Below, one piece after another: positions 3,842 through 30,246 of a stretch of 64,000 nucleotides of DNA (position 1 is its first letter; every line of letters begins with the position of its first letter). Source of the DNA: Micromonospora sp. NBC_01740 (GTDB lineage Bacteria > Actinomycetota > Actinomycetes > Mycobacteriales > Micromonosporaceae); NCBI RefSeq assembly GCF_035920365.1, contig NZ_CP109150.1, positions 4,898,001 through 4,962,000 on the forward strand. The letters run 5' to 3'. Made by a program: the position numbers and the translations under genes. The notes below the pieces were generated by a model. It did not search any database and was not told where the DNA came from. It saw only the letters and a list, made by a program, of their open reading frames with translations.

Positions 3842-5362
3842 TCACAGGGTGGTTTCGCCGTTGAGGCCGAAGAAGTCGTGCCATTTGGTGCTGGGGTTGA
3901 AGGTGGTGCCGGTGGAGAGTCCTACGTAGACGTCGTTGGTGGTGCCTTTGGTGAAGACGATGATGTCGTCTTTGTTGTCGCCGTTGACGTCGGCGAGGTA
4001 GGGGAATTCGCCGGTGAGGCAGAAGAAGTCGTGCCATTTGACGGTGGTGCCGGTGAAGGTGGTGCCGGTGGAGGTGGCGGCGTAGACGTCGGCGTTGGTG
4101 TTGCAGGTGAAGGTGACGATGTCGTCGCGTCCGTCGCCGTTGATGTCGCCGACGCGGGGTTGTTCGGTGCCGACGGCGAAGAGGTCGTGCCATTTTTGGG
4201 GTGGGCCGAAGGTGGTGCCGGTGGAGAGGGCGACGATGACGTCGGAGGCGGTGTTGGGGCCTTGGGTGAAGGTGATGATGTCGTCTTTGCCGTCGCCGTT
4301 GACGTCGCCGATGGCGGGGTGTTCGCCGGGGATGGAGAAGTATTCGTGCCATTTGATGGCGGTGCCGGTGAATGAGGTGCCGGTGGAGAGGGCGACGTAG
4401 ACGTCGGCGTTGGTGTCGTGGGTGAAGGTGATGATGTCGTCTTTGCCGTCGCCGTTGACGTCGCCGACTGCGGCGACTTCGTTGTGGGGGGCGAACCAGT
4501 CGTGCCATTTGGTGCTGGGGCTGAAGGTGGTGCCGGTGGAGAGTGAGACGTGGACGTCGGCGAGGGTGCCGTGGGTGAAGGCGACGATGTCGTCGCGGTT
4601 GTCGCCGTTGAAGTCTCCGGTGAGCAGGGTTTCGCCGTTGAGGCCGAAGAAGTCGTTCCATTTGTTGGAGGTGCCGGCGAAGTTGGTGCCGGTGGAGGTG
4701 GAGACGTAGACGTCGTTGAGGGTGCCCTGGGTGAAGGTGACGATGTCGTCGCGTCCGTCGCCGGTGAAGTCGGTGGGCGAACCCGCCAGATACCGGCCAC
4801 CCGTCGGCGACGTACCGCAGTTGTCGCTGACCAGGTACTTCTGGTGGTACTGGCCGGGGTAGGGCGCCAGCGATGTTCCGTTGATCACGATCGTCTGCCC
4901 CACGCCGTTGTAGAGCTGTTCGTAGTGGATGTGCGGCCCCGACGAGTTGCCGGTGCTGCCCGTGGTGCCGATCTGCTGGCCCTGCTGCACGTACGCCCCG
5001 TCCGGCACGGAGTAGGTGCTGAGGTGGAAGTAGTAGGTGGTCCAACCGCCGCCGTGGTCGATGACGATGTAGTTGCCGGCGCCGCTGGGCTGCGAGTACC
5101 GCCGGGCGACGCCCGCCGCGGAGGCGACCTGCGGCGTGCCCGCGGTGGCACCTCCGTCGGCCCGCACGAAGTCCAGGGCCTGCCGGACCTCGGCGCTGTG
5201 GTGGTCGTAGGTCCACCGCTGCCCGCACGGGAACGGGGCCTTGAAGTTCGGCGCGGCGAGCGCGGGGGACGATGTCGCCACCGCGCCGGTCAGGACGCCC
5301 ACCGCCAGGGTGAGCAGGGCGGCCAGGACGCGACGCGCCCCGGTCCTCGGAGGCCGTGACAT
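3842..5362 (-). CDS. Secreted M23-family metallopeptidase with VCBS/FG-GAP repeat tail
   Basis: The product has 506 residues. A signal peptide (residues about 1-40, ending PALAAP) is followed by a lysostaphin-type M23 peptidase domain (about 45-185), then seven VCBS/FG-GAP repeats (about 195-506). The peptidase shows the QALDFV segment, the central IDHGGGWTTYYFHL strand and the zinc-binding HIH at 144-146. M23 enzymes cut peptide cross-links of peptidoglycan. Each repeat carries a DVNGDGKDD-like calcium-binding loop. The ATG at 5362 has a GGGAG ribosome site. The tail is almost identical in DNA to that of the amidase upstream, which points to recent duplication or gene conversion. The gene is last in a minus-strand series but is separated from the esterase gene by a hairpin. 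Confidence 0.9.
   Translation of the reverse strand: MSRPPRTGARRVLAALLTLAVGVLTGAVATSSPALAAPNFKAPFPCGQRWTYDHHSAEVRQALDFVRADGGATAGTPQVASAAGVARRYSQPSGAGNYIVIDHGGGWTTYYFHLSTYSVPDGAYVQQGQQIGTTGSTGNSSGPHIHYEQLYNGVGQTIVINGTSLAPYPGQYHQKYLVSDNCGTSPTGGRYLAGSPTDFTGDGRDDIVTFTQGTLNDVYVSTSTGTNFAGTSNKWNDFFGLNGETLLTGDFNGDNRDDIVAFTHGTLADVHVSLSTGTTFSPSTKWHDWFAPHNEVAAVGDVNGDGKDDIITFTHDTNADVYVALSTGTSFTGTAIKWHEYFSIPGEHPAIGDVNGDGKDDIITFTQGPNTASDVIVALSTGTTFGPPQKWHDLFAVGTEQPRVGDINGDGRDDIVTFTCNTNADVYAATSTGTTFTGTTVKWHDFFCLTGEFPYLADVNGDNKDDIIVFTKGTTNDVYVGLSTGTTFNPSTKWHDFFGLNGETTL
3846..4801 (-). repeat. 956-bp near-identical direct repeat, copy A
   Basis: This stretch encodes the VCBS tail of the M23 protein. It matches 6610-7565 in the same orientation (offset 2764) with only three differences: T4015/C6779, G4463/C7227 and C4596/A7360. 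Identity stops abruptly at 4801, exactly where the catalytic parts diverge. Confidence 0.95.
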
Positions 5363-5471
5363 GGGGTGACTCCCGTCAGGGAAGGCTCGGATGGGGTCGG
5401 GGGAGCGGGCACGCCGGTCGGCGTGGCGGATGCCACCCGGTGGGCGGGACGGTCGGGCCGCGGTGGGGCGC

Positions 5472-5530
5472 CGTCGACGACGCGCCGCCGGGCCGCGACG
5501 GATGTCTGCGGTGGCGGCGCGTCGTCGACG
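5472..5530 (-). terminator. Hairpin after the esterase gene
   Basis: A perfect 18-bp inverted repeat (5472-5489 and 5513-5530) with a 23-nt loop lies just past the stop of the esterase gene on the minus strand. It probably ends or weakens transcription before the M23 gene. Confidence 0.6.
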
Positions 5531-5534
5531 AGGC

Positions 5535-6530
5535 TCAGCCGGCGCGGCGCAGGCGGCCGAGCATCCCGTTGAGGTCCTGGACGAAGATGTCGTGCCGGAA
5601 GAAGTGGCCGCCGGGGAGCTCACGCCACTCGTGCGGGATGCCGGCCCGACCCAGGGCCGCCCGGAATTCGCGCTGACCGGCCAGCACCTGCGTCTCGTTG
5701 ACGTAGTCGAACCAGTTGATCGGGTCGGGCGAGGTGCCGGCGACCAGGAAGATGCGCTTGTTGCGGTAGCTCTCGATGCGCTGGACCGGGTTGTCGGCGG
5801 TGACCCGCGCCTCGTCCCACAGCGGCGCGCCGTAGACGGTGCCGCCGCCGAGGTCCATCGCGGCCGAGGTGGTGTTGGCCCAGTGCACGACGAGGCCGAA
5901 GTCGCGGCGCAGGCTGGCCGGCCCGGAGTGGGAACTGACCGAGCAGAAGTGGCCGTAGTACTTCGCGGTGTACTTCAGGGCGCCGAACCCGCCCATCGAG
6001 AAGCCGGCGACGGCGCGACCGTTGTACTCCGGGAAGGTGCGGAAGTTCGACTCGATCCAGGGCAGCAGCTGCGCGATGTGGAAGGTCTCCCAGTTGCGGG
6101 GACCGGTGTTGCTGTGGACCGGGTTCGAGTACCAGCCGGTGGAGGCGTCCGGCATGACGACGATGATCTCTCTGCCGGCGGTCAGGTTGATGATGTTGTC
6201 CTGCATGTGGAAGGTCCGGAAGTCGGCTGCCCCGCCGTGCAGCAGGTACAGCACCGGGTAACGCTTGCCGCTGGTGTGGTAGCCGTCGGGCAGCAGGACG
6301 TTGACCGCCGGGTCCCACTCGATGGCGTCGGTGGCGAACCGGTAGTACTGAAGGCGGCCACCGTTCTCGTTGCGGTCGACGATGCGCAGGCCGTGGCCGT
6401 CGCGGGCCGCGGACGCGGGCAGCGGTGCGGCGAGGGCGCCGGCGAACGTGCCGGCGGCGGCGACTCCCGCGGCGCCGGTCAGGAGCCGGCGGCGGCTGAC
6501 GGGCCGGCGGGCGGCAGGGGTGTTGTCCAT
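5535..6530 (-). CDS. Tat-exported alpha/beta-hydrolase, esterase D/antigen 85-like
   Basis: The product has 331 residues. The N-terminus has a twin-arginine signal (SRRRLLTG) and a hydrophobic stretch ending near ASAAR. The rest is an alpha/beta-hydrolase of the putative esterase (esterase D/Ag85) family: the oxyanion region YLLHGG, a nucleophile elbow GFSMGGFG, an aspartate in the GTSPDP segment and a catalytic histidine in LPGGHFF near the C-terminus. Relatives cleave or transfer acyl groups, including feruloyl esterases and mycolyltransferases. It lies between two peptidoglycan hydrolase genes, suggesting it removes acyl groups from a cell-wall or polysaccharide substrate; that is inference. 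Unlike its neighbours it lacks a VCBS tail. A GGAGG ribosome site supports the ATG at 6530. Confidence 0.85.
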   Translation of the reverse strand: MDNTPAARRPVSRRRLLTGAAGVAAAGTFAGALAAPLPASAARDGHGLRIVDRNENGGRLQYYRFATDAIEWDPAVNVLLPDGYHTSGKRYPVLYLLHGGAADFRTFHMQDNIINLTAGREIIVVMPDASTGWYSNPVHSNTGPRNWETFHIAQLLPWIESNFRTFPEYNGRAVAGFSMGGFGALKYTAKYYGHFCSVSSHSGPASLRRDFGLVVHWANTTSAAMDLGGGTVYGAPLWDEARVTADNPVQRIESYRNKRIFLVAGTSPDPINWFDYVNETQVLAGQREFRAALGRAGIPHEWRELPGGHFFRHDIFVQDLNGMLGRLRRAG

Positions 6531-6605
6531 GGATCCTCCATCGGGTGAAGCCGCGCCGGGCGGACGCGAACTGTGGCGCGGAGCGTGCTGTCTACGCGGG
6601 ACGGT

Positions 6606-8672
6606 TCAGAGGGTGGTTTCGCCGTTGAGGCCGAAGAAGTCGTGCCATTTGGTGCTGGGGTTGAAGGTGGTGCCGGTGGAGAGTCCTACGTAGACGTCGT
6701 TGGTGGTGCCTTTGGTGAAGACGATGATGTCGTCTTTGTTGTCGCCGTTGACGTCGGCGAGGTAGGGGAATTCGCCGGCGAGGCAGAAGAAGTCGTGCCA
6801 TTTGACGGTGGTGCCGGTGAAGGTGGTGCCGGTGGAGGTGGCGGCGTAGACGTCGGCGTTGGTGTTGCAGGTGAAGGTGACGATGTCGTCGCGTCCGTCG
6901 CCGTTGATGTCGCCGACGCGGGGTTGTTCGGTGCCGACGGCGAAGAGGTCGTGCCATTTTTGGGGTGGGCCGAAGGTGGTGCCGGTGGAGAGGGCGACGA
7001 TGACGTCGGAGGCGGTGTTGGGGCCTTGGGTGAAGGTGATGATGTCGTCTTTGCCGTCGCCGTTGACGTCGCCGATGGCGGGGTGTTCGCCGGGGATGGA
7101 GAAGTATTCGTGCCATTTGATGGCGGTGCCGGTGAATGAGGTGCCGGTGGAGAGGGCGACGTAGACGTCGGCGTTGGTGTCGTGGGTGAAGGTGATGATG
7201 TCGTCTTTGCCGTCGCCGTTGACGTCCCCGACTGCGGCGACTTCGTTGTGGGGGGCGAACCAGTCGTGCCATTTGGTGCTGGGGCTGAAGGTGGTGCCGG
7301 TGGAGAGTGAGACGTGGACGTCGGCGAGGGTGCCGTGGGTGAAGGCGACGATGTCGTCGAGGTTGTCGCCGTTGAAGTCTCCGGTGAGCAGGGTTTCGCC
7401 GTTGAGGCCGAAGAAGTCGTTCCATTTGTTGGAGGTGCCGGCGAAGTTGGTGCCGGTGGAGGTGGAGACGTAGACGTCGTTGAGGGTGCCCTGGGTGAAG
7501 GTGACGATGTCGTCGCGTCCGTCGCCGGTGAAGTCGGTGGGCGAACCCGCCAGATACCGGCCACCGGACCCGCCACCCGCGTTGACCAGGGAGATGTAGT
7601 GGTTCCAGTTCCAGTGCGGACCCGGGTCGGTGTGGTCGTTGCCCGGCAGTTCGTGGTGCCCCTTGATCGCGGTACGGTTCTTCGGCAGGCCGTACTTGTC
7701 GCAGAGATAGCGGGTCAGCGCGGCAGACGAGCGGTACATGGACTCGGTGAACCAGCTCGGGTTGTCGACGAAGCCCTCGTGTTCGATGCCCACCGAGTAC
7801 GGGTTGGCCGACCGCGCGTGGTAGGCGGTGTCGCCCTCGCGCACCATCTGGGTGATCTCGCCGTTGCTCGACTTCACCACGTAGTGGGCGCTCACTCCCG
7901 CCGACGGGTTCTGGAACCAGCTCACCGTGCCGGCGTACGAGCCCTGGGTCACGTGCACCACGACAGTGGTGATCCGCGAGGAGCGACCCGCCGCGTAGTT
8001 GCCGCCGTACGCCGAGATCCACCGGGCGGGCGCGTACTCCGGCACTGCCGCGGCGAGGGCACCCGGTGCCGCCACCCCGGCGGGGGCGACGCGGGCGTAC
8101 CGGCCGAGTTCCGGCTGCACCCGCTGGGGCGTGACCCGCGCGGAGGGCGCGGTGATGCCGGCCCGCAGGAGGTCGTAGACGTGGTCGGCGTACAGGCGGG
8201 CCGTTGCGTCGTCGGCGGCGTGCGCGTACCGCGCGACCACCGGGTACCAGGCGGAGATCCGGTCCCGGTCGGCGGCCGTGAGCCGCTCGGCGTCGGCGAT
8301 GTCCCGCAGGAGGGCCGCGCCGCCCCTGATGTTGGCCGAGGTCACCGACTTCAGGGCGGCCACCGGTTGCCCGGTCAGTGCGGCCGCCCGTTCCAGCGTG
8401 CGCTGGCGGGGGTTGCTGACCAGGTGCATGACGCCGTAGCCGTTGGCCTGGCTGGGCTGCCCCTCGTGTCCGTCGAGCCGGGTCTCGCCGTAGCCGACGG
8501 CGACCAGCAGGTCCCTGGGTACGTCGAACTCGCCGGCCGCTCGCGTGAAGGCCGTGTCGAGCGGACCGGCGGGCCTGGCCGGCGCGGCGGCGGCCGGCGC
8601 GACGGGGCTCAGCAGCGCCGCCGCGAGGACGACGGCGGCACCCCCGCGCCAGGAGAGTCTGTCGGGTCTCAT
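6606..8672 (-). CDS. Secreted N-acetylmuramoyl-L-alanine amidase with lysozyme-like N-domain and VCBS tail
   Basis: The product has 688 residues. A signal peptide (about 1-30) leads to a lysozyme/SLT-like region (about 40-165) containing the GETRLDGHEG segment. An amidase_2/PGRP domain (about 205-360) follows, with putative zinc ligands in VVVHVTQ and in HTDPGPHW. Seven VCBS/FG-GAP repeats complete the protein (about 370-688). The amidase would cleave the bond between MurNAc and L-Ala in peptidoglycan; the first domain may bind or cut glycan strands. The ATG at 8672 has a GGGAG ribosome site and lies only 20 bp after the preceding gene, so the two are co-transcribed. The frame stays open upstream through the preceding gene, but that stretch is a shadow of it. 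Confidence 0.9.
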   Translation of the reverse strand: MRPDRLSWRGGAAVVLAAALLSPVAPAAAAPARPAGPLDTAFTRAAGEFDVPRDLLVAVGYGETRLDGHEGQPSQANGYGVMHLVSNPRQRTLERAAALTGQPVAALKSVTSANIRGGAALLRDIADAERLTAADRDRISAWYPVVARYAHAADDATARLYADHVYDLLRAGITAPSARVTPQRVQPELGRYARVAPAGVAAPGALAAAVPEYAPARWISAYGGNYAAGRSSRITTVVVHVTQGSYAGTVSWFQNPSAGVSAHYVVKSSNGEITQMVREGDTAYHARSANPYSVGIEHEGFVDNPSWFTESMYRSSAALTRYLCDKYGLPKNRTAIKGHHELPGNDHTDPGPHWNWNHYISLVNAGGGSGGRYLAGSPTDFTGDGRDDIVTFTQGTLNDVYVSTSTGTNFAGTSNKWNDFFGLNGETLLTGDFNGDNLDDIVAFTHGTLADVHVSLSTGTTFSPSTKWHDWFAPHNEVAAVGDVNGDGKDDIITFTHDTNADVYVALSTGTSFTGTAIKWHEYFSIPGEHPAIGDVNGDGKDDIITFTQGPNTASDVIVALSTGTTFGPPQKWHDLFAVGTEQPRVGDINGDGRDDIVTFTCNTNADVYAATSTGTTFTGTTVKWHDFFCLAGEFPYLADVNGDNKDDIIVFTKGTTNDVYVGLSTGTTFNPSTKWHDFFGLNGETTL
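6610..7565 (-). repeat. 956-bp near-identical direct repeat, copy B
   Basis: This encodes the VCBS tail of the amidase and matches 3846-4801 with three substitutions. Both copies use less GC-biased codons (for example AAA before TGG) than the diverged tail at about 8697-9630, which uses AAG in the same places. That indicates a recent shared origin. Confidence 0.95.
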
Positions 8673-8692
8673 GGTGGTCTCCCGTCCGCGGT

Positions 8693-10144
8693 TCACAGGG
8701 TGGTCTCGCCGTTCAGGCCGAAGAAGTCGTGCCACTTGGCGCTGGCGCCGAAGGTGGTGCCGGTGGAGAGCGCGACGTGGACGTCGTTGGTGGTGCCCTT
8801 GGTGAAGACGACGATGTCGTCCTTGCCGTCGCCGTTGACGTCGGCGAGGTAGGGGAACTCGCCGGCGAGGCAGAAGAAGTCGTGCCACTTGACGGTGGTG
8901 CCGGCGAATGACGTGCCGGTGGAGGTGGCGGCGTAGACGTCGGCGTTGGTGTTGCAGGTGAAGGTGACGATGTCGTCGCGTCCGTCGCCGTTGATGTCGC
9001 CGACGCGGGGGAGTTCGGCGCCGACGGCGAAGAGGTCGTGCCACTTCTGGGGCGCGCCGAAGGCGCTGCCGGTGGAGAGGGCGACGATGACGTCGGAGGC
9101 GGTGGCGGGGCCCTGGGTGAAGGTGATGACGTCGTCGCGGCCGTCGCCGTTGACGTCGCCCAGGGCGGGGTACTCGCCGGCGATGGAGAAGTACTCGTGC
9201 CACTTCACGGCGGTGCCGGCGAACGATGATCCGGTGGACAGCGCCACGTAGACGTCGCCGGCCGCGTTGTGGGTGAAGGCGACGATGTCGGCGCGGCCGT
9301 CGCCGTTGACGTCGCCGACCGCGCCGATCTCCGCGCCGGGGGCGAACCACTCGTGCCACTTCTGGCCGCCGCCGAAGCTGGTGCCGTTCGACAACGCCAC
9401 GTACACGTCGCCGGTGTTGCCGTGCGCGAAGGTGACGACGTCGTCGCGTCCGTCGCCGTCGACGTCGCCGGTCGAGGCGGTCTCGCCGCCGATGGAGAAG
9501 AAGTCGTTCCACTTCACCGAGGTCCCGGCGAAGCCCGCGCCCGTGGAGGTGCTGACGTAGACGTCGGCGAGCGCGTTCTGGGTGAAGCTGACGATGTCGT
9601 CGCGTCCGTCGCCGCTGACGTCGGTGGCGGATCCGCCAGCGATGGCGTGGGTCCGTGCCGCCTCGTCGAGCAGGGTCCGCGCCTTCGTCGCCACCTGGTC
9701 GTAGCGGTCGGGGAAGCCGGAGCGCTGGACGCACTGGGCGACCTGGCCGGCGGTGTAGCGGGGGTTGTTGCGGTCGCAGACGATCGCGCGGGTGACGTAC
9801 TGCGTGCTGGCGTAGACCGGGTCCATGATCTGCTCCGGCGTGCCCCAGCCGTAGTCCCACCGTTGCTGGAACACCCCGAGCGAGGACTTGTCGCCGCACG
9901 GCAGGTTGTTCATGTGCGACTCGACCCAGCCGGCCTCGAACGCGGAGAGCATGACCTTGTCGTTGACGTTGTGGGCGCGGGCGACCCGGTAGACGATCAC
10001 GCTGATCGCGGGGTCGTGGTTGGCGGGGATCGAGGTACAGGCCAGCGTGCCGATCGGGGCGTCGGCCTGCGCCGGCGCGGTCGCCACGACCGACGCCAGC
10101 GCGGTGCAGAGGCCGACCAGCAGGGCGAGGGGAGTACGTCTCAC
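8693..10144 (-). CDS. Secreted lytic-transglycosylase-like protein with VCBS tail
   Basis: The product has 483 residues. A signal peptide (about 1-27, ending AQADAP) precedes a lysozyme-like domain (about 30-165). This has the pattern AGWVESHMNN then CGDKSSLGVFQQR and GWGTPEQIMDP, familiar from actinobacterial transglycosylase-like proteins; the Glu in WVES (near residue 70) is the likely catalytic acid. VCBS/FG-GAP repeats fill about 170-483. The start is GTG at 10144 with an AGGAG site 5 bases away. It is the first gene of the minus-strand wall-lytic operon; its promoter has a consensus TTGACA box and a LacI-type operator. The tail is homologous to the 956-bp repeat but more diverged and richer in GC. 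Confidence 0.86.
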   Translation of the reverse strand: MRRTPLALLVGLCTALASVVATAPAQADAPIGTLACTSIPANHDPAISVIVYRVARAHNVNDKVMLSAFEAGWVESHMNNLPCGDKSSLGVFQQRWDYGWGTPEQIMDPVYASTQYVTRAIVCDRNNPRYTAGQVAQCVQRSGFPDRYDQVATKARTLLDEAARTHAIAGGSATDVSGDGRDDIVSFTQNALADVYVSTSTGAGFAGTSVKWNDFFSIGGETASTGDVDGDGRDDVVTFAHGNTGDVYVALSNGTSFGGGQKWHEWFAPGAEIGAVGDVNGDGRADIVAFTHNAAGDVYVALSTGSSFAGTAVKWHEYFSIAGEYPALGDVNGDGRDDVITFTQGPATASDVIVALSTGSAFGAPQKWHDLFAVGAELPRVGDINGDGRDDIVTFTCNTNADVYAATSTGTSFAGTTVKWHDFFCLAGEFPYLADVNGDGKDDIVVFTKGTTNDVHVALSTGTTFGASAKWHDFFGLNGETTL

Positions 10145-10157
10145 GATGCTCCTCTGA

Positions 10158-13714
<3,557 letters not shown>

Positions 13715-13715
<1 letters not shown>

Positions 13716-15838
13716 TGCGCGCGCCCCGGATGCTCGCGGTGCTCCTGCTCGGCGCCGCCCTGCTGGCCGTCCCGGCCACGCCGGCCGCCGCCGAGGACGT
13801 GGTCCGGGCCGAGGCGGAGTCGCTGACGGTGCTCTCGTCGACCGCCCCGGTCGAGGCGCAGGCCAACTGCTGCGGGGTCGCCTGGTCGGCGGGCCGCCAG
13901 CTCTGGCTGCGTGCCGCCCGGGCGGGGGACTCGGTCACCGTGTCGCTGCCGCCGGTGCCGGCCGGGCAGTACGACATCGGCGCCGTGCTCACCCGCGCCG
14001 CCGACTACGGCACCCTGCGCTTCGCCGTCGACGGGGTGGCCGTCGGCCAGCTCTTCGACGGCTACGCCCCGACCGTGCGGCGCGTCGAGGCCGTACCGCT
14101 GGGATCGGCCTCGCTCGCCGCCGGCAGCCACCGGCTGACGGTGACGGTGACCGGCCGCTCCGCCTCCTCGACGGGGTTCTTCGCGGGCCTGGACACGCTC
14201 ACCCTGCGCCGCGTCGGCCCGCTGGCGGCGGTCACCACGACGGCGTACGAGACGGTGGCCGAGACGCCGGCACGGGGGCCGCTGACGCGGGTCTACGACC
14301 CGGGCGTGGGGGAGCCGACGGCGTGGTACTACAACGACCACACGATCGTGCGCGACCAGCGGACCGGGCTGTGGCACGCCTTCGCCATCGCCCACGCCGA
14401 GCCCGGCGCGCCGCAGGACGAGAAGAGCTTCGGCCACGCCACGGCGCCCACGCCCACCGGGCCGTGGACGAAGCGGCCACCGGCGCTGACGGCCGACCCG
14501 TCGAGGGGCGAACAGTGGATCTGGGCGCCCCACGTCGTCCACGACCAGGGCGTCTACTACATGTTCTACGCGGCCGGCAGCCCCGACTACGCGAACTACC
14601 GGATGCACCTGGCCACCTCGACCGACCTGTTCACCTGGACCCGCAGCCCCGCCAACCCGCTGTTCAGCGACGGCTGGGAGGCGCGTGACCCGATGGTGAC
14701 CCGGGTCGGTGACCGCTGGGTCATGTACTACACGGCGACCTCGAATCCGCAGGGCGGCAACCACGTGGTCGCGTACCGCACCAGCGCCGACCTGCGGACG
14801 TGGAGCGGGCGTGGTGTGGCGTACGCGTCGCCGCACACCGGCCGGGCCGCCGGTCAGACGGAGTCGCCGTTCGTGGTGCGCCGGGGGGACTGGTGGTACC
14901 TCTTCGTCTGCTGCGACGGCACCGACTACGGCGCGGCGTACCGGCGCACCGCCGTCTACCGCAGCCGCGACCCCCTGCGCTTCGAGGGGGCGGAGAAGGT
15001 GACCGTGCTCGACGCGCACGCCGCCGAGGTCGTGGTCGACGGGGAGAACTGGTACCTGAGCCACGCCGGCTGGGGCCAGGGCGGGCTGTGGCTCGCCCCG
15101 CTGACCTGGTCCACCCAGGTGGTCGCCCGCGGCTACCAGGTGAGCACCGGTTTCCTGCGCGCCGACGTGCGCACCTGGCCGCACACCCGGATCGCGTCCC
15201 TGGCGGTCGACCCGGCCGGCGCGGGGGCGTACCGGCCGGCGTTGGACTCGTCGCACCGGGGCACCGGTCCCTATCTGGCGGTCGGCCGCTTCGACGTCAC
15301 GGACCGGGCGGGCCCGCCGGCAAGGGTGGACGTCTCCGCCGACGGTTCCCGGATCAACCTGGTCGGCATGCGGATGGGCGACGAGCCGGTCACCGCCGAC
15401 TGGCTGCTGACCGTGGCGCCCCGCTGGACCGGGCCGGCGCTGCAGAGCGACGTCACCTGGTCGGTGACCGGCCAGACGACGGCGCCGGTGTGGGAGGTGG
15501 CGTTCAACGTCGACGGTGCCCTGCCGGCGGTCGGGGATCCCGCCGTGGCGGCCCGGCCGACGGGGGACGTGCCGGGGATGCCGACGTGGTCGATGACCTC
15601 CGGCGCGAATCTGTCCCTTGTGGCCGCCCACCGCTGGGCCTCGGCGTGGCGCGGCGACAACACCTGGTACGACGCCGGCCACGCGATGGCGTCCTGGCAG
15701 CCGCTGTGGCGCAACGGGGGCGCCGCGTGGCCGCCGGGGTCGTACCCGGGCGGGACGTGGCGGTTCGCCGCCAGCGGGGTGGGGCGGGACACCGCGTTCG
15801 CCGAGACCGTGCACGCGGCGGTCAACGCGGTGCCCTGA
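13715..15838 (+). CDS. Secreted five-bladed beta-propeller glycosidase (GH32/43/117-like) with N-terminal beta-sandwich
   Basis: The product has 707 residues. A signal peptide (about 1-25) precedes a carbohydrate-binding-like beta-sandwich (about 27-170). A five-bladed propeller (about 190-470) shows an Asp in YNDHTIVRD, the RDP motif at 324-326 and a QTESPFVV segment with Glu383. These are the three acidic signatures of the GH32/43/62/68/117/130 fold group. A further beta-rich region of unknown type fills about 490-707. It likely hydrolyses furanosides outside the cell, together with the GH172-like protein whose stop codon overlaps its ATG (TGATG, translational coupling). The exact family and substrate remain open. 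A hairpin after the stop ends this two-gene unit. Confidence 0.8.
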
Positions 15839-15845
15839 GGGGCCG

Positions 15846-15889
15846 CCGGTGCGGGTCGGGCGGCGGGGCGGCGGCCCGGCCCGCACCGG
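15846..15889 (+). terminator. Hairpin ending the glycosidase operon
   Basis: A 16-bp stem (15846-15861 with 15874-15889, one G-T pair) and a 12-nt loop lie 7 bases after the stop at 15838 and just upstream of the transporter promoter. Confidence 0.6.
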
Positions 15890-15894
15890 GGGCG

Positions 15895-15923
15895 TTGACA
15901 TCACTTCGACGCCCGTCTATGTT
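15895..15923 (+). promoter_or_regulatory. Sigma-70-type promoter of the sugar importer operon
   Basis: TTGACA (15895-15900), a 17-base spacer, then TATGTT (15918-15923): a near-consensus promoter. A perfect palindromic operator starts 4 bases downstream. Confidence 0.75.
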
Positions 15924-15927
15924 GCCA

Positions 15928-15939
15928 GAAATCGATTTC
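15928..15939 (+). promoter_or_regulatory. LacI-type operator O3 (importer operon), perfect palindrome
   Basis: GAAATCGATTTC is a perfect 12-bp palindrome sitting where transcription should start. It has the central CG typical of LacI-family operators and matches O1, O2 and O4. Confidence 0.75.
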
Positions 15940-15959
15940 CGATCTACCCGGAGGCCCGC

Positions 15960-17512
15960 GTGAGCGACCAGGTGACCGTCGCCATGTCGGGCATCACCAA
16001 GCGCTTCGGCGGCGTCCACGCCCTGCGCGGCGTGGACCTCACCCTGCGCGCCGGCGAGGTCCACGCCCTGCTGGGGGAGAACGGGGCCGGGAAGTCGACC
16101 CTGATCAACATCCTGTCCGGCGTCGTCACCGACCACGGCGGGGAGATCTCGATCGGCGGCCAGCCCGTGCGCTTCGCCGGCCCGGCAGCCGCCCAGGCCG
16201 CCGGCATCGCCACGATCCACCAGGAACTCGACCTGGTGCCGGCGCTCTCCGTGGCCGAGAACCTGGTGCTCGGCCGGGAACCGCGCACCAGGCTGCGGAC
16301 GCTCGACCGGCGGGCGATGGCCCGCGCCGCCCAGGACTGGCTGGGCCCGCTCGGCGCCCGGATCGATCCGCGCCGGCCCGTCGGTTCGCTGCGCGTCGGC
16401 GAGCAGCAGCTCGTCGAGATCGCCAAGGCGCTCTCCCTCGACGCCCGCGTCCTCGTCATGGACGAACCGACCGCCGCGCTCGCCGACGCCGAGGTGCGGC
16501 GGCTGATGTCCACCATCCGCGCGCTGCGCGAGCGCGGCGTGGCCGTCGTCTACATCTCCCACCGCCTCGAGGAGATCGAGCACATCGCCGACCGGGCCAC
16601 CGTCCTGCGCAACGGCGAGGTGGCCGGCACGCTGCGCCCGGACCGCGCCGACCGGCAGCGGATCATCACGCTGATGGTCGGCCGCCCCGCCGAGGCGCTG
16701 TTCAGCGCGGGATCCGCCGGGCCCGCCCGCCCCGCGGGGCGGGCGGTGCTGGAGGTCGACGACCTCGCCGTACGGCCCCGGGGCACCCGGCCCGGACGCT
16801 GCGAACCCGCCGGCGTCAGCCTGACCGTGCGCGCCGGGGAGATCGTCGGCCTGGCCGGCCTGATGGGGGCGGGCCGCACCGAACTGCTGGAGACCCTGTA
16901 CGGCGCCGGCCCGCCCGGTCGCCGCAGCGGCCAGATCCGGCTGGCCGGCCGCCCGTACGCCCCGCGCGGCCCCCGCGCCGCCCTGCGCGCCGGCGTCGGC
17001 TTCGTGCCGGAGGACCGCCGCCGCTCCGCCCTGGTGCTCGAGCACCCCGTCGGCCGCAGCATCGTCCTGGCCGCCCTGCGCCGGGTCAGCACCGCCGGGG
17101 TCGTCCGCGCCGGACGCGAGCGGGACGCGGTACGCCAGCAGGTCGCCGCCCTGGCGATCAAGACGTCGTCCGCGGCCGCGCCGGTCGGCTCGCTCTCCGG
17201 CGGCAACCAGCAGAAGGTCGTCTTCGCCCGGCACCTGCTCACCCGCCCCCGCCTGCTGCTGCTCGACGAGCCGACCCGGGGCGTCGACGTCGGCGCCAAG
17301 GCGGAGATCTACCGGCTGCTGCGCCGGCTCGCCGACGACGGGATGGGCATCCTGCTCGCCTCGTCGGAGCTGCCCGAGCTGACCGGCGTCTGCGACCGGA
17401 TCGTGGTCCTGCGGCGCGGACGGGCCGTCGCGGAACTCGCGGCCGACGGGTGCACCGGCGAGGACATCCTGACCGCGGCCATGGGCGGCACGGCCGCCGG
17501 AGGGGACGACCG

Positions 17513-17516
<4 letters not shown>
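15960..17516 (+). CDS. Sugar ABC transporter ATP-binding protein (RbsA/XylG-like, double ATPase)
   Basis: The product has 518 residues, the usual length for the duplicated ATPases of ribose/xylose-type importers. Domain 1 (about 8-245) has Walker A GENGAGKST near 39-47, a signature-like RVGEQQLVEIAKAL and Walker B VLVMDEPTAAL. Domain 2 (about 260-500) has the degenerate GLMGAGRTE loop typical of RbsA, LSGGNQQKV and LLLDEPTRGVD. It powers uptake of a monosaccharide, probably a pentose, with the permease and lipoprotein that follow. The GTG at 15960 has a GGAGG site 5 bases away. Its promoter carries a LacI-type operator. The stop overlaps the permease start (ATGA). Confidence 0.92.
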
Positions 17517-18595
<1,079 letters not shown>

Positions 18596-18621
18596 ACCGC
18601 CACCGAACAAGGAGCGTCATC

Positions 18622-19623
18622 ATGCGCACCCGTACCGTCCTTCTCGCGCTGCTGTGCACCGGCGCGCTCGTCACCTCCACCGCGTGCAGCGTGGAGAAGC
18701 CGTCCGACGGCGGCGACGCCACGGCCGCGAAGTGCGGCGCCGGCAAGGACTTCCTCATCGGCATGTCACAGGCCAACAACGCCGAGCCCTACCGGCAGGT
18801 CATGAACAACGACGTGCAGACGGCGGCGAAGTCCGTCCCCGGGTTCACCGTGGTGGTCGCCGACGCGGCGCAGGACAACAGCAAGCAGGTCGCCGACGTG
18901 GAGAACTTCCTCACCCAGAAGATCGACCTGCTGGTCATCTCGCCTAACGAGGCCAAGCCGCTGACCGCGGTGGTGCGCAAGGCGTACGACCGGGGGGTCC
19001 CGGTGATCGTGCTCGACCGCAAGGTGGAGGGCGAGGCGTACACCGCCTTCATCGGCGGGGACAACGTCGCCATCGGCAGGGCCGCCGGCGAGTTCTACGC
19101 CACCACGCTGCTGCCCGCCGGCGGCAAGGTCATCGAGATTGCCGGGCTGCCCGGCTCCACGCCGGCGGCCGAACGCGCCCAGGGCTTCCGGGAGGGCATC
19201 GCGGCCAACCCGAAGATCGAGGTCGTTGCCTCCCAGCCGGGGGACTGGCTGCGGGAGAAGGGCCAGTCGGTGGCTGACGCGCTGCTCAAGGCCCACCCCG
19301 ACGCCGCCGCCGTGTACGCCCACAACGACCCGATGGCCGAGGGCGCGTACCTGGCCGCGAAGGCGGCCGGGCTGCACACGAAGGTGAAGTTCACCGGCAT
19401 CGACGCCCTGCCGGTGCCGTCGGGCGGGATCAAGGCCGTCGAGCAGGGCCGGCTGGCGGCGACCTTCCAGTACGCCACGGGTGGCCGGGAGGCCGTCGAC
19501 CTGGCCCGCCGGATCCTGGTCGACTGCGCCGAGGACGTTCCGCGTACCACCACCCTCGACACGATGCGCGTCACGAAGGAGAACGCCGCCGAGACGTACG
19601 CGAAGCTCGGTGGCGTCGCCTGA
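18622..19623 (+). CDS. Sugar-binding lipoprotein of the ABC importer (RbsB-like)
   Basis: The product has 333 residues. The signal peptide ends in a lipobox (TSTAC, Cys near residue 22), so the protein is lipid-anchored on the outside of the membrane. The mature part is a periplasmic-binding-protein type 1 domain of the ribose/galactose group: FLIGMSQANNAEPYRQVM at the start, the LVISPNEAKPLTAVVRKAYDRGVPVIVLDRK region, and the hinge stretch KFTGIDALPVPSGGIKAVEQGRLAATFQY. It captures the imported sugar. An AAGGAG site precedes the ATG. A GC-rich hairpin directly after the stop may give this gene more mRNA than the catabolic genes downstream. Confidence 0.92.
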   Translation: MRTRTVLLALLCTGALVTSTACSVEKPSDGGDATAAKCGAGKDFLIGMSQANNAEPYRQVMNNDVQTAAKSVPGFTVVVADAAQDNSKQVADVENFLTQKIDLLVISPNEAKPLTAVVRKAYDRGVPVIVLDRKVEGEAYTAFIGGDNVAIGRAAGEFYATTLLPAGGKVIEIAGLPGSTPAAERAQGFREGIAANPKIEVVASQPGDWLREKGQSVADALLKAHPDAAAVYAHNDPMAEGAYLAAKAAGLHTKVKFTGIDALPVPSGGIKAVEQGRLAATFQYATGGREAVDLARRILVDCAEDVPRTTTLDTMRVTKENAAETYAKLGGVA

Positions 19624-19648
19624 CCGCCGGGCCGGCGCGGCCCGGCGG
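19624..19648 (+). terminator. Intra-operon hairpin after the binding-protein gene
   Basis: A perfect 11-bp stem (CCGCCGGGCCG with CGGCCCGGCGG) and a 3-nt loop abut the stop codon. In importer operons such elements partially terminate transcription or stabilise the upstream mRNA. Confidence 0.5.
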
Positions 19649-19686
19649 GCCACGACCCGGACCTGGAAGAGCGGAGGAGACCTGGC

Positions 19687-21219
19687 ATGACGGTGGCCGC
19701 GGTGCTCGGGGTCGACATCGGCACGTCCAGCAGCAAGGGCGTCCTCGTCGACCTGGCTGGGCGCGTGCTGCGCTCCCGCGTCCGGGAACACCGGGTGGAC
19801 CGGCCACGACCCGGCTGGGTGGAGATGGACGGCCGCGTCTGGTGGGACGAGTTCGTCGCCCTCACCCGTGAGCTGTTGGCCCCCGGCGACGCCCACGTGG
19901 TGTCGGTCGGGGTCAGCGGGATGGGGCCGTGCGTGCTGCTCACCGACGCCGCCGGCACGCCCCTGCGCCCGGCCGTCCTCTACGGCGTCGACACCCGGTC
20001 CACGCCGCAGATCGCCCGGCTGACCGAGCGCTTCGGCGCGGACGAGATCCTGCGCCGGTGCGGCTCGACGCTGTCGACCCAGGCGGCGGGGGCGAAGGTC
20101 GCCTGGGTCGCCGACGCCGAGCCGGAGCTGTTCGCCCGGGCCCGGCGGCTGTTCATGCCGAGCTCCTGGCTGGTCTGGCAGCTGACCGGCCGGTACCTGC
20201 TCGACCAGCACTCGGCCAGCCAGTGCACGCCGCTGTACGACAGCGCGGCGCAGACCTGGTACCGGCCCTGGGCCGACGAGATCGCCCCGGGGCTGGAGCT
20301 GCCCGAGCTGCGGTGGCCCGGCGACGTGGCGGGTGCGGTCACCGCCGGGGCCGCCGCGACCACCGGGCTGCCGCCGGGCACCCCGGTCGTGACCGGGACG
20401 ATCGACGCCTGGTCGGAGGCGGTCAGCGTGGGCGCCCAGGGCGTCGGCGACCTGATGCTCATGTACGGCACCACGATGTTCCTCGTGCACACGGTGCCGC
20501 ACCCGCTGACCAGCCCGGCGCTGTGGGGCACGGTCGGCGCGCTGCCGGGCACCCGCAACCTGGCCGGCGGCATGGCGACCTCCGGGGCGATCACGGGGTG
20601 GCTGCGGGAGCTGTTCGACGCCGCCGACTACCCCGAGCTGCTGCGCCTGGCCGAGCGCTCCGGGCCGGGCGCGCGTGGCCTGCTCATGCTGCCGTTCTTC
20701 GCCGGCGAGCGGACCCCCATCCTCGATCCCGACGCCCGGGGCGTCATTGCCGGCCTGACGCTCTCCCACGGGCGCGGCGACATCTACCGGGCGGCGCTGG
20801 AGGCGACCGGGCTGGCCGTGCGCCACAACATCGAGACCATCGAGGCGGCCGGCGGCGACATCCGCCGCGTCGTGGCGGTGGGCGGCGGCACCCGGGGCGA
20901 CCTCTGGACGCAGATCGTCTCGGACGTCACCGGCCGGGCACAGCACATCCCGTCGGTCACCATCGGCGCGAGCTACGGCGCCGCGTTCCTCGCCGCCGGC
21001 GCGGTGCAGCGGGTCGACATCCACCGGTGGAACCCGATCCGGGAGGTCCGGGAGCCGCGCCCGGCGCTCGCCGCCGACTACGCGGAGCTGTACGGGCTCT
21101 ACCGGCAGCTCTACGCCGGCTCGAAATCCGTCGCCCACGTGTTGGCCGCCCGGCAGACGCGCCTCGCGACCCCGCCCCAGCCAGGTACCGACGAGCCAGT
21201 GGAGGAAGTCAACCCGTGA
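19687..21219 (+). CDS. FGGY-family carbohydrate kinase
   Basis: The product has 510 residues, standard for FGGY kinases. The N-terminal ATPase fold starts with [15 protein letters not shown], and the C-terminal domain has the conserved [13 protein letters not shown] and [22 protein letters not shown] motifs. The family phosphorylates ketoses or polyols such as xylulose, ribulose, fuculose and glycerol. It is followed by an isomerase of the fucose/arabinose type with overlapping stop and start (GTGA), so it most likely phosphorylates the ketose that this isomerase makes. D-ribulose from D-arabinose is one option and would give D-ribulose 5-phosphate. A GGAGGAG site precedes the ATG. Confidence 0.9.
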
Positions 21220-22850
21220 GCAACTACACCATGCCGGTGCTGGTCGACCCGCCGGCCGCCGCCCCCCGGACGGTCTACACGGTCGCCAGCGGCGACCTGC
21301 GGCCGGCCGCGAACGTCACCGGTTGGCCGACCCAGCAACGCCTGGAGGCGGACCTCGCCGACGCGGTGACCGCCCTGGGCTGGCAGACCCGGCGGGCCCA
21401 TCCGGTGGACGCCGGCGCGGGCCACGGCTTCATCGACAGCCAGCGCGCCGGCATCGAGATCTTCCAGGGGATCCCGGTCGACGCCCCGCTCGTCGTCGTG
21501 GAGGCGGTGTGGCAGTACAGCCACCACGTGCTGGCCGGGCTGCGCGCCCACCGCGGCCCGATCCTGCTCGTGGCGAACTGGAGCGGGGAGTTCCCCGGCC
21601 TGGTCGGCCTGCTGAACCTCGCCGGCAGCCTCACCAAGGCGGGCGTGCGGTACTCGGCGCTGTGGAGCGAGGACTTCACCGACGAGTGGGCGCGCGACGG
21701 GCTGAAGGCCTGGCTGGAAACCGGCGAGGTGGTCCACGACGAGAGCCACGTGCGGGACCTGCCGCCGTTGCCGCCCGATCCCGAGGTCGCGCTCGGCGTG
21801 GCGCTGGCCCGTCAGCTGCGACGCCGGCCGGCCGTCGTCGGCGTCTTCGACGAGGGCTGCATGGGCATGTACAACGCGATCATCGACGACGAGCTGCTCA
21901 ACCCGCTCGGCATCTTCAAGGAGCGGCTGTCGCAGAGCGCGCTGGTGGCGGAGATGTCGCGGGTGTCCGACGCGGAGGCGCACGCGGTGCGGGCGTGGCT
22001 CGACGCCGCCGGGATGACCTTCCACACCGGCACGGACGAGGCCACCGAACTGACCGACGCCCAACTGCACAGCCAGTTCAAGATGTACGTCGCCGCGCTG
22101 CGCATCGCCGACGACTTCGGCCTGGACGCGGTCGGCATCCAGTACCAGCAGGGGCTCAAGGACACGGTGCCGGCGAGCGATCTGGCCGAGGGGCTGCTCA
22201 ACGACGTGTCCCGGCCGCCGGTCACCAGCCGGGACGGCACACGCGAGCTGTACGCGGGACAGGCCCTGCCGCACTTCAACGAGGTCGACGAGGGCGTCGC
22301 GGTGGACTCGCTGGTCACCAACCGGATCTGGACCGCGATGGGGATGGACCCGGCCACCACCCTGCACGACATCCGCTGGGGGGAGCCGTACGGGACGGAC
22401 TTCGTCTGGGTGTTCGAGATCTCCGGCTCGGTGCCCGCGTCCCACAACGGCGGCTACGACCGGTCGTACAGCATGCGGCAGCCGCCGATGTACTTCCCGC
22501 TGGGCGGCGGCACCCTCAGCGGCGTCTCCCGGCCGGGCGAGATCGTCTGGTCGCGGATCTTCATCATGGACGGGGTGCTGCACGCCGACCTGGGCCGGGG
22601 CACCGTGGTCGAGCTGCCGGCCGCCGAGACGCAGCGTCGGCTGCGGGCCACCACCCCGCAGTGGCCGATCATGCACGCCGTGCTGCACGGCGTGGGTCGC
22701 GACCAGCTGATGGCCCGGCACAAGGCCAACCACGTCAACGTGGTCTACGCCGACGACGCCGACGCCGCCGACCGTGCCCTGCGGGTCAAGGCCGCGATGC
22801 TCGACGCGTTGGGGGTGCGGGTGCACCTGTGCGGCGACGTGGCGCTGTGA
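21216..22850 (+). CDS. L-fucose/arabinose isomerase-like protein
   Basis: The product has 544 residues and reads as a fucose/arabinose isomerase-family aldose-ketose isomerase. An N-terminal substrate-entry region (ESHHV-like [24 protein letters not shown]) precedes a central region [14 protein letters not shown] with acidic residues expected to bind Mn2+. A C-terminal [13 protein letters not shown] contains the histidine expected near the metal. FucI-type enzymes interconvert L-fucose and L-fuculose and also D-arabinose and D-ribulose. The GTG start at 21216 overlaps the kinase stop by 4 bases, and GGAGG lies upstream. Together kinase and isomerase complete intracellular catabolism of the imported sugar. 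Which sugar is used is not decided by the sequence. Confidence 0.82.
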
Positions 22851-22875
22851 CCCGTCCGGGTGGCCCGCCGCCGGC

Positions 22876-23928
22876 TCACCGGGCCCGGGCGGGCCCACCC
22901 GCGCCGGCGGCGGGCTGTCCGTCGGGCGGGGGCAGGGACCGGACCGAACTCTCGCGGACCCGCAGGGTCGTCCGCAGGGTGACGGTCGAGGACGCCTTCG
23001 CGGGGTTGGCGATCCGCTCGGTGAGCAGCGACGCCGCGGCCCGCCCCAGGTCGTACGTGGGCTGCGCGACGGTGCTCAGCGAGGGCCGCACCAGGTGGGC
23101 CCAGGGGATGTCGTCGAACCCGACCACGCCGCACCGGGTGGGCACGGCGACACCCCTGTCGACCAGGCACTCCACCGCGCCCACCGTCATCAGGTTGTTG
23201 GTGACGAAGACCGCGTCCGGCGGCTCGGCGGCGTTCAGCAGGGACGCCATGGCCCGGTAGCCGCCGTCCTCCCGGAAGTCGGCGTACCGGACCAGGTCCT
23301 CCGGCACGCTCCGGCCGGCCGCGCGAAGGGCCTGCTGGTATCCGCGTAACCGCTGGACGGCGGTGGAGATCCGCCGCGGTCCCGTGACGCAGGCGATCCG
23401 GCGGTAGCCGCTGTCGATCAGGTGGGCGGTGGCCGTCTCGGCGCCGTGGACGTTGTCCACGAGCACGGTGTCCACGGCCACCCCGTGCGGCTGCCGGTCG
23501 ATGGCCACGACCGGCATCCCGGCCTCGGTGAGCCGGTTGATCAGGGCCGGTCGTCCCGACGGCGAGATGATCACGCCGGCCATCCGCTCGGCCAGGGCCG
23601 CCGTCACGTAGCGGGTCTCCTTCTCGGGATCCTCGTCGCCGTTGCACAGGACCACGGAGAAGCCCGCCTCCTGCGCCACGTCCTCGATGCCGCGCACCAG
23701 CGAGGTGAAGAACGGGTTGCCGATGTCGGAGATGATCACCGCCCAGAGACTGGTGCGTTGCCGGCGCAGGCTGCGGGCCACCGCGTTGGGTCGGTAGTCC
23801 AGGTCGAGCACCACCTGGCGTACCCGCGCGGCCAGGTCCGGATCCACCGACGAGTGCCCGTTGAGCACCCGGGACACCGTCGACGCCGAGACCTCGGCCA
23901 CCCGGGCCACGTCGTAGATGGTCGTCAT
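22876..23928 (-). CDS. LacI-family transcriptional repressor, proposed local regulon regulator
   Basis: The product has 350 residues. The LacI helix-turn-helix is at the extreme N-terminus (TIYDVARVAEVSASTVSRVLNG), followed by the hinge YRPNAVARSLR and a periplasmic-binding-like effector domain (about 60-330) with VVGFDDIPWAHLVRPSLSTV. It probably represses the flanking hydrolase, glycosidase and importer operons and is released by a sugar. Four matching palindromes (10266, 10394, 15928, 24056) support this, the last one upstream of its own gene. The ATG at 23928 fits the fold start. The gene converges on the isomerase gene with 25 bp between the stops. Confidence 0.9.
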   Translation of the reverse strand: MTTIYDVARVAEVSASTVSRVLNGHSSVDPDLAARVRQVVLDLDYRPNAVARSLRRQRTSLWAVIISDIGNPFFTSLVRGIEDVAQEAGFSVVLCNGDEDPEKETRYVTAALAERMAGVIISPSGRPALINRLTEAGMPVVAIDRQPHGVAVDTVLVDNVHGAETATAHLIDSGYRRIACVTGPRRISTAVQRLRGYQQALRAAGRSVPEDLVRYADFREDGGYRAMASLLNAAEPPDAVFVTNNLMTVGAVECLVDRGVAVPTRCGVVGFDDIPWAHLVRPSLSTVAQPTYDLGRAAASLLTERIANPAKASSTVTLRTTLRVRESSVRSLPPPDGQPAAGAGGPARAR

Positions 23929-24247
23929 GCGGTCGTCCCCTGTCGGTGTCTCGCGCCCGGTCCCGCACCGGACCCCCGGATGCGACCGCACGAGCACCAC
24001 CGTCCGTTGCGGCCCGCCGCCCGAGAGTGGTCGGCCCTGAGATCCTATATGGCAGGGAATCGATTTCTTCTGCGCGTCGTGGCCGCGCCCCGCGACGCAG
24101 CGTCGTCCGCCTGCCGCGTACGGCGCTGCGCCACACCGGCCGGCGGCACGCGTACCGCCGGCCGGTCCGGTCGCCGGGGGCGGGAAGCCACCCGGTGACC
24201 GGACCTGGACGCGGCGGTGTGTCGACGCCGCCTCGGCGGTGTCGGCG
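23929..24247. other. 319-bp intergenic region between lacI start and DUF4127 gene end
   Basis: It contains the operator at 24056 and probably the lacI promoter on the minus strand. Apart from that I see only GC-rich sequence without a credible gene. Confidence 0.6.
24056..24067 (-). promoter_or_regulatory. LacI-type operator O4 (autoregulatory)
   Basis: The plus strand reads GGAATCGATTTC. It sits 128 bp upstream of the lacI start, next to a possible -10 (TATAGG on the minus strand at about 24048-24043), so the operator would lie in the spacer of a weak lacI promoter. Confidence 0.6.
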
Positions 24248-26710: not shown

Positions 26711-26763
26711 CGGTTCACTTTCGTCATGGTGGTGGACGAGGTCATCGGGGATCGGTGGCGCGG

Positions 26764-30059: not shown

Positions 30060-30091
30060 GTCGGCTCCTCGCGTTGCCGGGGGATGCGCTG

Positions 30092-30121
30092 AGTCTTGGA
30101 TCAGCGAGAGGCCCGGGTCAA
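30092..30121 (-). promoter_or_regulatory. Probable promoter of the DUF4127 operon
   Basis: On the minus strand TTGACC (30121-30116) is followed after 17 bases by CAAGAC, or after 18 by AAGACT. It would give a leader of about 27 bases before the ATG at 30059. Confidence 0.4.
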
Positions 30122-30135
30122 TACCGCCGGAGGCC

Positions 30136-30149
30136 GTAATACGTATTAC
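30136..30149. promoter_or_regulatory. Perfect 14-bp palindrome, probable LacI-family operator
   Basis: GTAATACGTATTAC is perfectly symmetric around a central CG, the usual format for LacI-type sites. It lies between the divergent promoters of the DUF4127 operon and the lacI-family gene, about 14 bp from each -35 box. It differs from the GAAATCGATTTC operators of the neighbouring locus. Confidence 0.65.
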
Positions 30150-30164
30150 TGCGTCCGTCGGCCC

Positions 30165-30194
30165 TTGACACCGGTTCTGCGGGCCGGGCAGCAT
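30165..30194 (+). promoter_or_regulatory. Probable promoter of the second lacI-family gene
   Basis: TTGACA at 30165-30170, then CAGCAT at 30189-30194 (18-base spacer). The -10 is weak. Confidence 0.4.
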
Positions 30195-30246
30195 CCTCCG
30201 CGACAACCATCGGCGATACGTGATGCTGAGAAGGTGGCCGATATCC

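Follow-up and report, generated by a model that had tools for sequence, protein, structure and literature searches.

Peptidoglycan hydrolases, a predicted arabinofuranosidase and pentose uptake under one LacI-type operator in Micromonospora sp. NBC_01740: a probable regulon for digesting D-arabinan-bearing cell walls

Why should a sugar repressor govern peptidoglycan hydrolases together with the genes for taking up and using a pentose? This question is raised by a locus in the genome of Micromonospora sp. NBC_01740 (7.3 Mb, a single contig), which lies in a 64,000-nucleotide stretch of contig NZ_CP109150.1 (positions 4,898,001 to 4,962,000), called here the window. A sequence-only reading of this DNA had proposed that the locus strips the wall of other bacteria and uses its pentose. 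We consider it probable that LacI controls the locus as one regulon, which serves to digest the arabinogalactan-peptidoglycan wall of mycolic-acid bacteria, or of other bacteria bearing D-arabinan, and to feed on the pentose. The locus looks built for the walls of mycobacteria and related bacteria because it appears to combine hydrolases, a D-arabinan enzyme and an importer, and because four of its enzymes share a lectin-like domain, the FG-GAP (FG) propeller. D-arabinan loci are known; what appears new from the sequence is one regulon that joins them to peptidoglycan hydrolases via a shared lectin-type tag.

Two divergent operons face each other at about 10.2-10.4 kb of the window. On the minus strand the muramidase-like gene is the first, followed by the amidase, esterase and M23 peptidase genes; on the plus strand a GH172 gene and a GH43/32-like gene precede an importer-kinase-isomerase operon, and lacI follows on the minus strand. 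Every gene that had been named in the sequence-only reading was found in its place. The features, in window coordinates, are:

3842..5362, minus strand: M23 metallopeptidase, secreted, C-terminal FG-GAP propeller (about 3842-4777); Pfam M23 E 8.9e-22, FG-GAP E 4.3e-26
5535..6530, minus strand: putative esterase, PF00756, CE1-type, no FG domain; Pfam E 3.2e-46
6606..8672, minus strand: Amidase_2 (N-acetylmuramoyl-L-alanine amidase), C-terminal FG-GAP propeller (6606-7577); Amidase_2 E 7.1e-32, FG-GAP E 4.8e-25
8693..10144, minus strand: muramidase-like protein, C-terminal FG-GAP propeller (8693-9649); profile matches 8b2h, 8b2e
10266..10277, no strand: operator GAAATCGATTGC, promoter of the minus-strand hydrolase operon; sequence search
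10394..10405, no strand: operator GCAATCGATTTC, GH172 promoter; sequence search
10440..13715, plus strand: GH172 (DUF2961), secreted, long form, C-terminal FG-GAP propeller (about 12765-13712); DUF2961 E 8.7e-62
13715..15838, plus strand: CBM and five-bladed GH43/GH32-like furanosidase, secreted; its start codon overlaps the GH172 stop
15928..15939, no strand: operator GAAATCGATTTC, importer promoter; sequence search
15960..17516, plus strand: sugar ABC importer ATPase, RbsA/XylG type; domain matches
17510..18595, plus strand: sugar ABC permease, ribose type; domain matches
18622..19623, plus strand: sugar-binding lipoprotein, RbsB/YtfQ-like; domain matches
19687..21219, plus strand: FGGY pentulose kinase, XylB-like, predicted D-ribulokinase; domain matches and orthologues
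21216..22850, plus strand: FucI-superfamily isomerase, predicted D-arabinose isomerase; weak Fucose_iso_C/N1 matches and orthologues
22876..23928, minus strand: LacI-family repressor with a sugar-binding domain; LacI E 1.9e-16
24056..24067, no strand: operator GGAATCGATTTC, upstream of lacI; sequence search

The operator GNAATCGATTNC stands upstream of the hydrolase operon, GH172, the importer and lacI. Within the window AATCGATT occurs four times against 0.09 expected, always upstream of genes of the locus, and GAAATCGATTTC with at most one mismatch is found at five places in the 7.3-Mb genome, four of them in the locus, which bears out the earlier claim of one operator family. We found also a common layout at three promoters, read from the sequence: TTGACA, 17 nucleotides (nt), a -10-like hexamer, 4-6 nt and the operator. 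The two hexamers are TTGACA (10311-10306) and GATACT (10288-10283) for the hydrolase operon on the minus strand, TTGACA (10359-10364) and GTTAAC (10382-10387) for GH172, and TTGACA (15895-15900) and TATGTT (15918-15923) for the importer. The peptidoglycan hydrolases are placed in the regulon because the operator is present at their promoter, the same test that places GH172 and the importer there. With a palindromic operator at each of these promoters the locus has the form of a LacI regulon, and lacI itself may be autoregulated from GGAATCGATTTC. A first palindrome candidate, AARCGNTT, with eight matches listed and one in the locus (15999-16006, inside the ATPase gene), was dropped.

The operator was then counted in 80 loci fetched for GH172, FG, GH183 or GH116 matches, 79 from relatives and one (L141) from the own genome, and the counts describe those loci and not whole genomes. 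In 1.34 Mb of loci, AATCGATT has 90 distinct sites, versus 0-7 for 11 other palindromes of the same composition; a flanking G two bases before its core, or C after it, is present in 179 of 180 positions, and a -35-like box lies 30-40 nt upstream of 50 of the 186 oriented sites versus 0.67% of 20,000 random positions. With the window included, 79 of 93 strict sites lie beside the start of a tested gene. The per-gene table, which adds the window and leaves out genes that begin within 450 bp of the edge of a locus as well as matches short of the N-terminus, gives an operator within 450 bp upstream for FGGY kinases (13/16), LacI homologues (22/38), long (23/34) and short (9/14) GH172, M23 (12/23), muramidase-like (10/33), CobW (4/4), GH43 (1/21) and DUF4185 type 2 genes (1/15), and for none of the GH183 (0/7), GH116 (0/9), permease (0/17) and binding-protein (0/17) genes; for the ABC ATPase, 3 of the 14 loci at 65% identity or above have one. 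Because the other 14 of 93 strict sites are away from the starts of tested genes (for example L123:18898, L125:18169, L126:18099, L130:2172 and L131:2516), the regulon probably has further members. The CobW-type GTPase gene (L062:7122-8372), which has the operator in 4/4 cases, belongs to a second GH172 locus type described below and has no obvious role in sugar use.

The C-terminal FG-GAP propeller common to the M23, amidase, muramidase-like and GH172 proteins was absent from the sequence-only reading. By computation it has six repeats and the lectin fold of the UmbA-type propellers, and it might act as a lectin binding the target wall. UmbA4, the beta-propeller lectin of the Streptomyces umbrella toxins (9oee), has the same propeller fold; there it targets a toxin particle, whereas in the window the propeller is fused to wall hydrolases, and the locus is not classed as an umbrella toxin. 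The FG-GAP DNA of the M23 gene (3842-4801) is 99.6% identical to that of the amidase gene (6606-7565) over 960 bases (4 mismatches), versus about 85% identity of these copies to the muramidase copy, which argues for a recent gene conversion or duplication.

Several residues of the hydrolases are conserved: H50, D59, H139 and H141 of M23 (numbered on the translated piece), which we take to be the ligand residues, are invariant in 21/21 aligned sequences; H240, H347 and D349 of the amidase, presumably functional, in 26/26; and E70 and E75 of the muramidase-like protein in 20/20. The N-terminal region of the amidase looks lysozyme-like by eye. The muramidase-like protein had been called transglycosylase-like; its domain gave no Pfam match at E 0.001, and its profile matches two solved chains, at E 1.1e-7 the chain 8b2h ('SH3b domain-containing protein') and at E 0.0048 the chain 8b2e ('Muramidase'). 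The esterase, whose leader appears twin-arginine-type by eye, belongs to PF00756. The proposed Ag85 likeness is not confirmed, since among solved structures it is closest to 5vol ('putative esterase') and to esterases of the feruloyl type, with the mycolyltransferase Cmt1 at E 9e-8. It is at most a candidate for a role on mycolyl-arabinogalactan.

The GH172 protein, which has a leader by eye, is assigned to its family by the DUF2961 match and by two glutamates, E420 and E441 (aligned piece), invariant in 16/16 sequences; they align with Glu 270 and Glu 291 of alphaFFase1 chain 7v1v (own residue count) and we take them to be catalytic. Its Tyr449, also present in 16/16 sequences, stands at the site of Gly299 in alphaFFase1, Asn253 in ExoMA1 and a Cys in DgGH172c (8ah3). 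In alphaFFase1, Gly299 gives space for the hydroxymethyl group of fructose, and the window enzyme has no small residue there, as in the alpha-D-arabinofuranosidase subgroup; it is predicted to be an exo-alpha-D-arabinofuranosidase. The GH43/32-like protein, whose nearest relative among the matches listed is a M. echinospora protein (93%), is a putative furanosidase.

The importer is of the ribose type, with ATPase, permease and binding protein, and its presence and that of an FGGY kinase, both part of the sequence-only reading, are confirmed by domain matches. The kinase is closest to XylB, yet falls under the cut-off of that model. The FucI-type label of the isomerase holds only weakly, with Fucose_iso_C at 29.8 bits versus a cut-off of 29.3, Fucose_iso_N1 under its cut-off and no PDB sequence match at E 0.1. 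Orthologues of the kinase (67-69%) and of the isomerase (76-78%) are labelled in 6 of the 8 GH183-GH172-GH116 loci given below and in L178. With isomerase, kinase and importer the locus has that part of a canonical D-arabinan locus. In Dactylosporangium the kinase gene has a gene for a xylulose-5-phosphate/fructose-6-phosphate phosphoketolase nearby (L049:16526-19168), which fits a pentose phosphate product.

Among 300 genomes of the family, the GH172 query was matched in 52 (E 0.001) and the FG domain in 59 (E 1e-30), so both are accessory. Linkage was counted in 26 genomes, the own one among them, whose GH172 is of the window type or nearest to it; second-type loci (L062-L069) were left out. 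GH172 carries FG in 23 of the 26, and an FG-tagged muramidase, amidase or M23 lies within 26 kb in 19 of these 23; for untagged GH172 the figure is 0/3. The four exceptions are G018, G077, G118 and G279; GH172 is near a contig end in G018 and G118, and in G279 the tagged hydrolases are on another contig and the window-type locus holds a GH116 (PF04685). The second Micromonospora locus type contains GH172 (about 52-55%), a GH43-like gene, importer, LacI, isomerase and kinase, with GH116 in several; in the eight loci L062-L069 of this type there is no FG on GH172 and no tagged hydrolase within the 20-kb stretch.

The tag is also fused to GH183, in five Catellatospora genomes (Pfam E about 1e-115 in two, the other three by BLAST or by matches in one open frame). 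In eight same-genus loci (L172-L177, L185, L189) tagged muramidase and amidase genes are divergent to a DUF4185 (GH183-type) gene; a tagged M23 is present in five of these and a relative of the esterase (82-90%) beside the tagged hydrolases in four, as also in L071. Eight further loci (L123-L127, L129-L131) hold GH183, short GH172, GH116, LacI and AATCGATT, and L178 unites GH43-like, isomerase, kinase, LacI, short GH172, GH183, tagged muramidase and operator. At the level of sequence, then, wall stripping with pentose use is supported by the lectin-like domain found on both the peptidoglycan hydrolases and GH172 and, in relatives, on GH183 as well, by the kinase and isomerase orthologues and the same operator in the GH183/GH172/GH116 loci, and by the tagged muramidase and amidase beside DUF4185. 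It is supported also by the absence of an Emb arabinosyltransferase from 30/30 genomes (control positive), Emb being one route and other arabinosyltransferases not having been searched.

Catellatospora has in addition proteins of about 880-900 residues with a C-terminal FG domain (L135:14461-17100, L074:2771-5410 and, cut, L140:4077-5999). Their N-terminal part has no Pfam match, with a weak DUF4185 match in two by whole-genome search (40.3 bits, just above the cut-off, in G051; 35.2 in G016); standing beside LacI and operators, they are candidates for a divergent arabinan-active enzyme. A 2670-residue SpvB/TcdB-mid/RHS (Tc-toxin B/C-like) protein adjoins GH172-FG in Catellatospora L050 (226-8238), and in two other genomes (L051, L053) an open reading frame about as long is next to GH172-FG.

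Outside the family, 29 of 80 loci were annotated, and the counts refer to the stretch examined per locus. FG is on GH172 in 21/29, with a tagged M23, amidase or muramidase nearby in 8 of the 21 (7/19 without two Micromonospora loci), and a tagged hydrolase accompanies untagged GH172 in 0/8. In Actinophytocola algeriensis five tagged genes, for GH172, M23, muramidase, amidase and GH43, stand in a row without AATCGATT; Nonomuraea shows a muramidase-amidase-GH172 arrangement, and Streptomyces lycii, by BLAST only, a GH183-FG frame beside GH172-FG. GH172 lacks FG in 3/3 Mycobacterium and 2/3 Nocardia-labelled loci annotated (Nocardia sp. NRRL S-836 has it), and these enzymes perhaps serve the turnover of the bacteria's own arabinan. 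Many Mycobacterium and some Nocardia records (L229-L268) contain a protein related to the long GH172 and 49-54% identical to it.

Beyond lacI, the region 24248-31305 encodes two DUF4127 proteins, one of which has F5/8 type C domains, and a 530-residue protein whose start resembles a leader, and it contains another LacI gene in divergent orientation; this separate, possibly sugar-related cluster is without AATCGATT. A comparison with plasmids was uninformative, because all of the 70 matching records were below 60% identity and none spanned 80% of the query.

The locus can be set against known systems. The papers drawn on for comparison include PMC10115798, PMC10509167, PMC13274773 and PMC9905845. 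D-arabinan-degrading loci were described in 2023, and GH183, GH172 and GH116 together have been shown to break down mycobacterial arabinan; Microbacterium arabinogalactanolyticum and, in PUL42, Dysgonomonas gadei have loci with these three, an isomerase and a kinase. The window locus is alike in GH172, FucI-like isomerase, kinase, ABC importer and a predicted route to D-ribulose 5-phosphate, with GH183 and GH116 in relatives, and unlike in the propeller and leader on GH172, in the peptidoglycan hydrolases and esterase in the regulon, in the Rbs monosaccharide-type importer and in missing GH183 and GH116; the Microbacterium exo-enzymes have been described as without signal sequences. The literature places DUF4185 in the lysis cassettes of some actinobacteriophages, and a GH172 (MycGH172) in Ca. 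Mycosynbacter amalyticus, a parasite of acid-fast bacteria; this organism is unrelated and is likened without sequence comparison. A search of titles and abstracts in the open-licence literature found no paper joining GH172 or GH183 with FG-GAP-tagged peptidoglycan hydrolases. Mycobacteriophage LysA/LysB cassettes also pair peptidoglycan hydrolases with an esterase, LysB being the esterase for mycolyl-arabinogalactan; the window locus is, unlike them, chromosomal, sugar-regulated and coupled to sugar import, and its PF00756 esterase would have a putative LysB-like role.

Several results weigh against a regulon for wall digestion. Since GH183 and GH116 are missing from the window locus, it is not filed as a canonical D-arabinan locus; GH116 (PF04685) is absent from the own genome (G000) and present in the GH183 loci of eight relatives, and the own genome's DUF4185 gene lies about 62 kb away (one further match is under the cut-off), with no AATCGATT in the surrounding 18 kb, and is not counted as part of the locus. 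Because AATCGATT is found in only 1 of the 8 same-genus DUF4185-muramidase-amidase loci, the hydrolases are not in every case regulated together with the arabinose genes; the most complete tandem sets (L206, L269) are also without it. Of the outside-family loci with FG-tagged GH172, 12/19 lack a tagged peptidoglycan hydrolase (M23, amidase or muramidase) in the stretch examined. FG-GAP is found on further secreted proteins as well: among the best 120 of 3016 matches, 23 are without the tested partner domains. The amidase (0/29), esterase (0/10) and isomerase (0/21) have no operator of their own, as expected because these genes lie inside operons. The fold search of the GH43/32-like protein is topped by endo-levanases, we know of no activity for the long GH172 form, and the Emb result covers the one route.

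We think it unlikely that the locus targets another D-arabinofuranose or furanoside wall polymer, such as that of non-mycolic Pseudonocardiaceae, with the esterase acting on other acyl groups: the feruloyl-type and other esterases nearest to the window esterase, the lack of any dedicated mycolyl enzyme seen and the resemblance of the shared domain to lectins for other wall polymers would suit it, but the set of enzymes known to break down mycobacterial arabinan is linked to the locus operator, and the GH172 relatives occur in Mycobacterium and Nocardia records themselves. Remodelling of the bacterium's own wall, with the sugar genes recycling its arabinose, seems very improbable. Micromonospora cell hydrolysates do contain arabinose, and M23 peptidases and amidases are common in self-wall turnover, but the genomes are without Emb, GH172 and the FG domain are accessory, and control by a sugar repressor suits catabolism. 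Use of fructan or difructose anhydride, with GH172 as alpha-fructofuranosidase and the GH32-like protein as levanase, is hardly to be believed and is demoted from the alternative it had been, because Tyr replaces the alphaFFase1 Gly in 16/16 sequences and the isomerase-kinase pair suits a pentose, and the peptidoglycan hydrolases and GH183 are a misfit, although the GH43/32-like protein by itself would permit fructan, GH32 levanases and GH43 arabinofuranosidases scoring no more than about 3 Z units apart in its fold search.

For the digestion of D-arabinan-bearing walls we infer the following substrates, lectin binding, inducer and order of events. The muramidase-like enzyme, amidase and M23 peptidase would open the peptidoglycan, and the secreted GH172 would take off alpha-D-arabinofuranosyl residues, all four being kept on the target wall by the shared six-repeat propeller; the CE1-type esterase might strip acyl groups and the GH43/32-like furanosidase other furanosyl residues. 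Free D-arabinose would be imported by the Rbs-type importer and converted to D-ribulose and then D-ribulose 5-phosphate, and the sugar or an intermediate would free LacI from the operators just downstream of the -10 box. The bacterium may kill live mycolata or feed on dead walls. A review table groups Micromonospora with five other genera as facultative epibiotic predators whose pooled prey includes M. smegmatis; the passages available give no mechanism. We offer more tentatively, as a possibility we would not bet on, a prey-recognition circuit in which D-arabinose, a typical sugar of mycolata walls, is a cue that induces the lectin-tagged lytic enzymes; these would bind mycolata and break them open, and the freed D-arabinose would be both inducer and food. 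If this were true, the exchange of the tag among muramidase, amidase, M23, GH172, GH43 and GH183, which spans several actinobacterial families and uses the lectin type by which umbrella toxins find their targets, would be a free-enzyme analogue of the cellulosome for bacterial walls.

If the proposed wall-digesting regulon is real, it would show how the entire mycolata wall is dismantled by soil actinobacteria, and mycobacterial cell biology would gain a ready-made toolkit of enzymes that dissolve the wall. The locus raises two testable questions, whether D-arabinose is a signal by which actinomycetes perceive mycolic-acid bacteria, and what the ligand of the FG-GAP tag may be.

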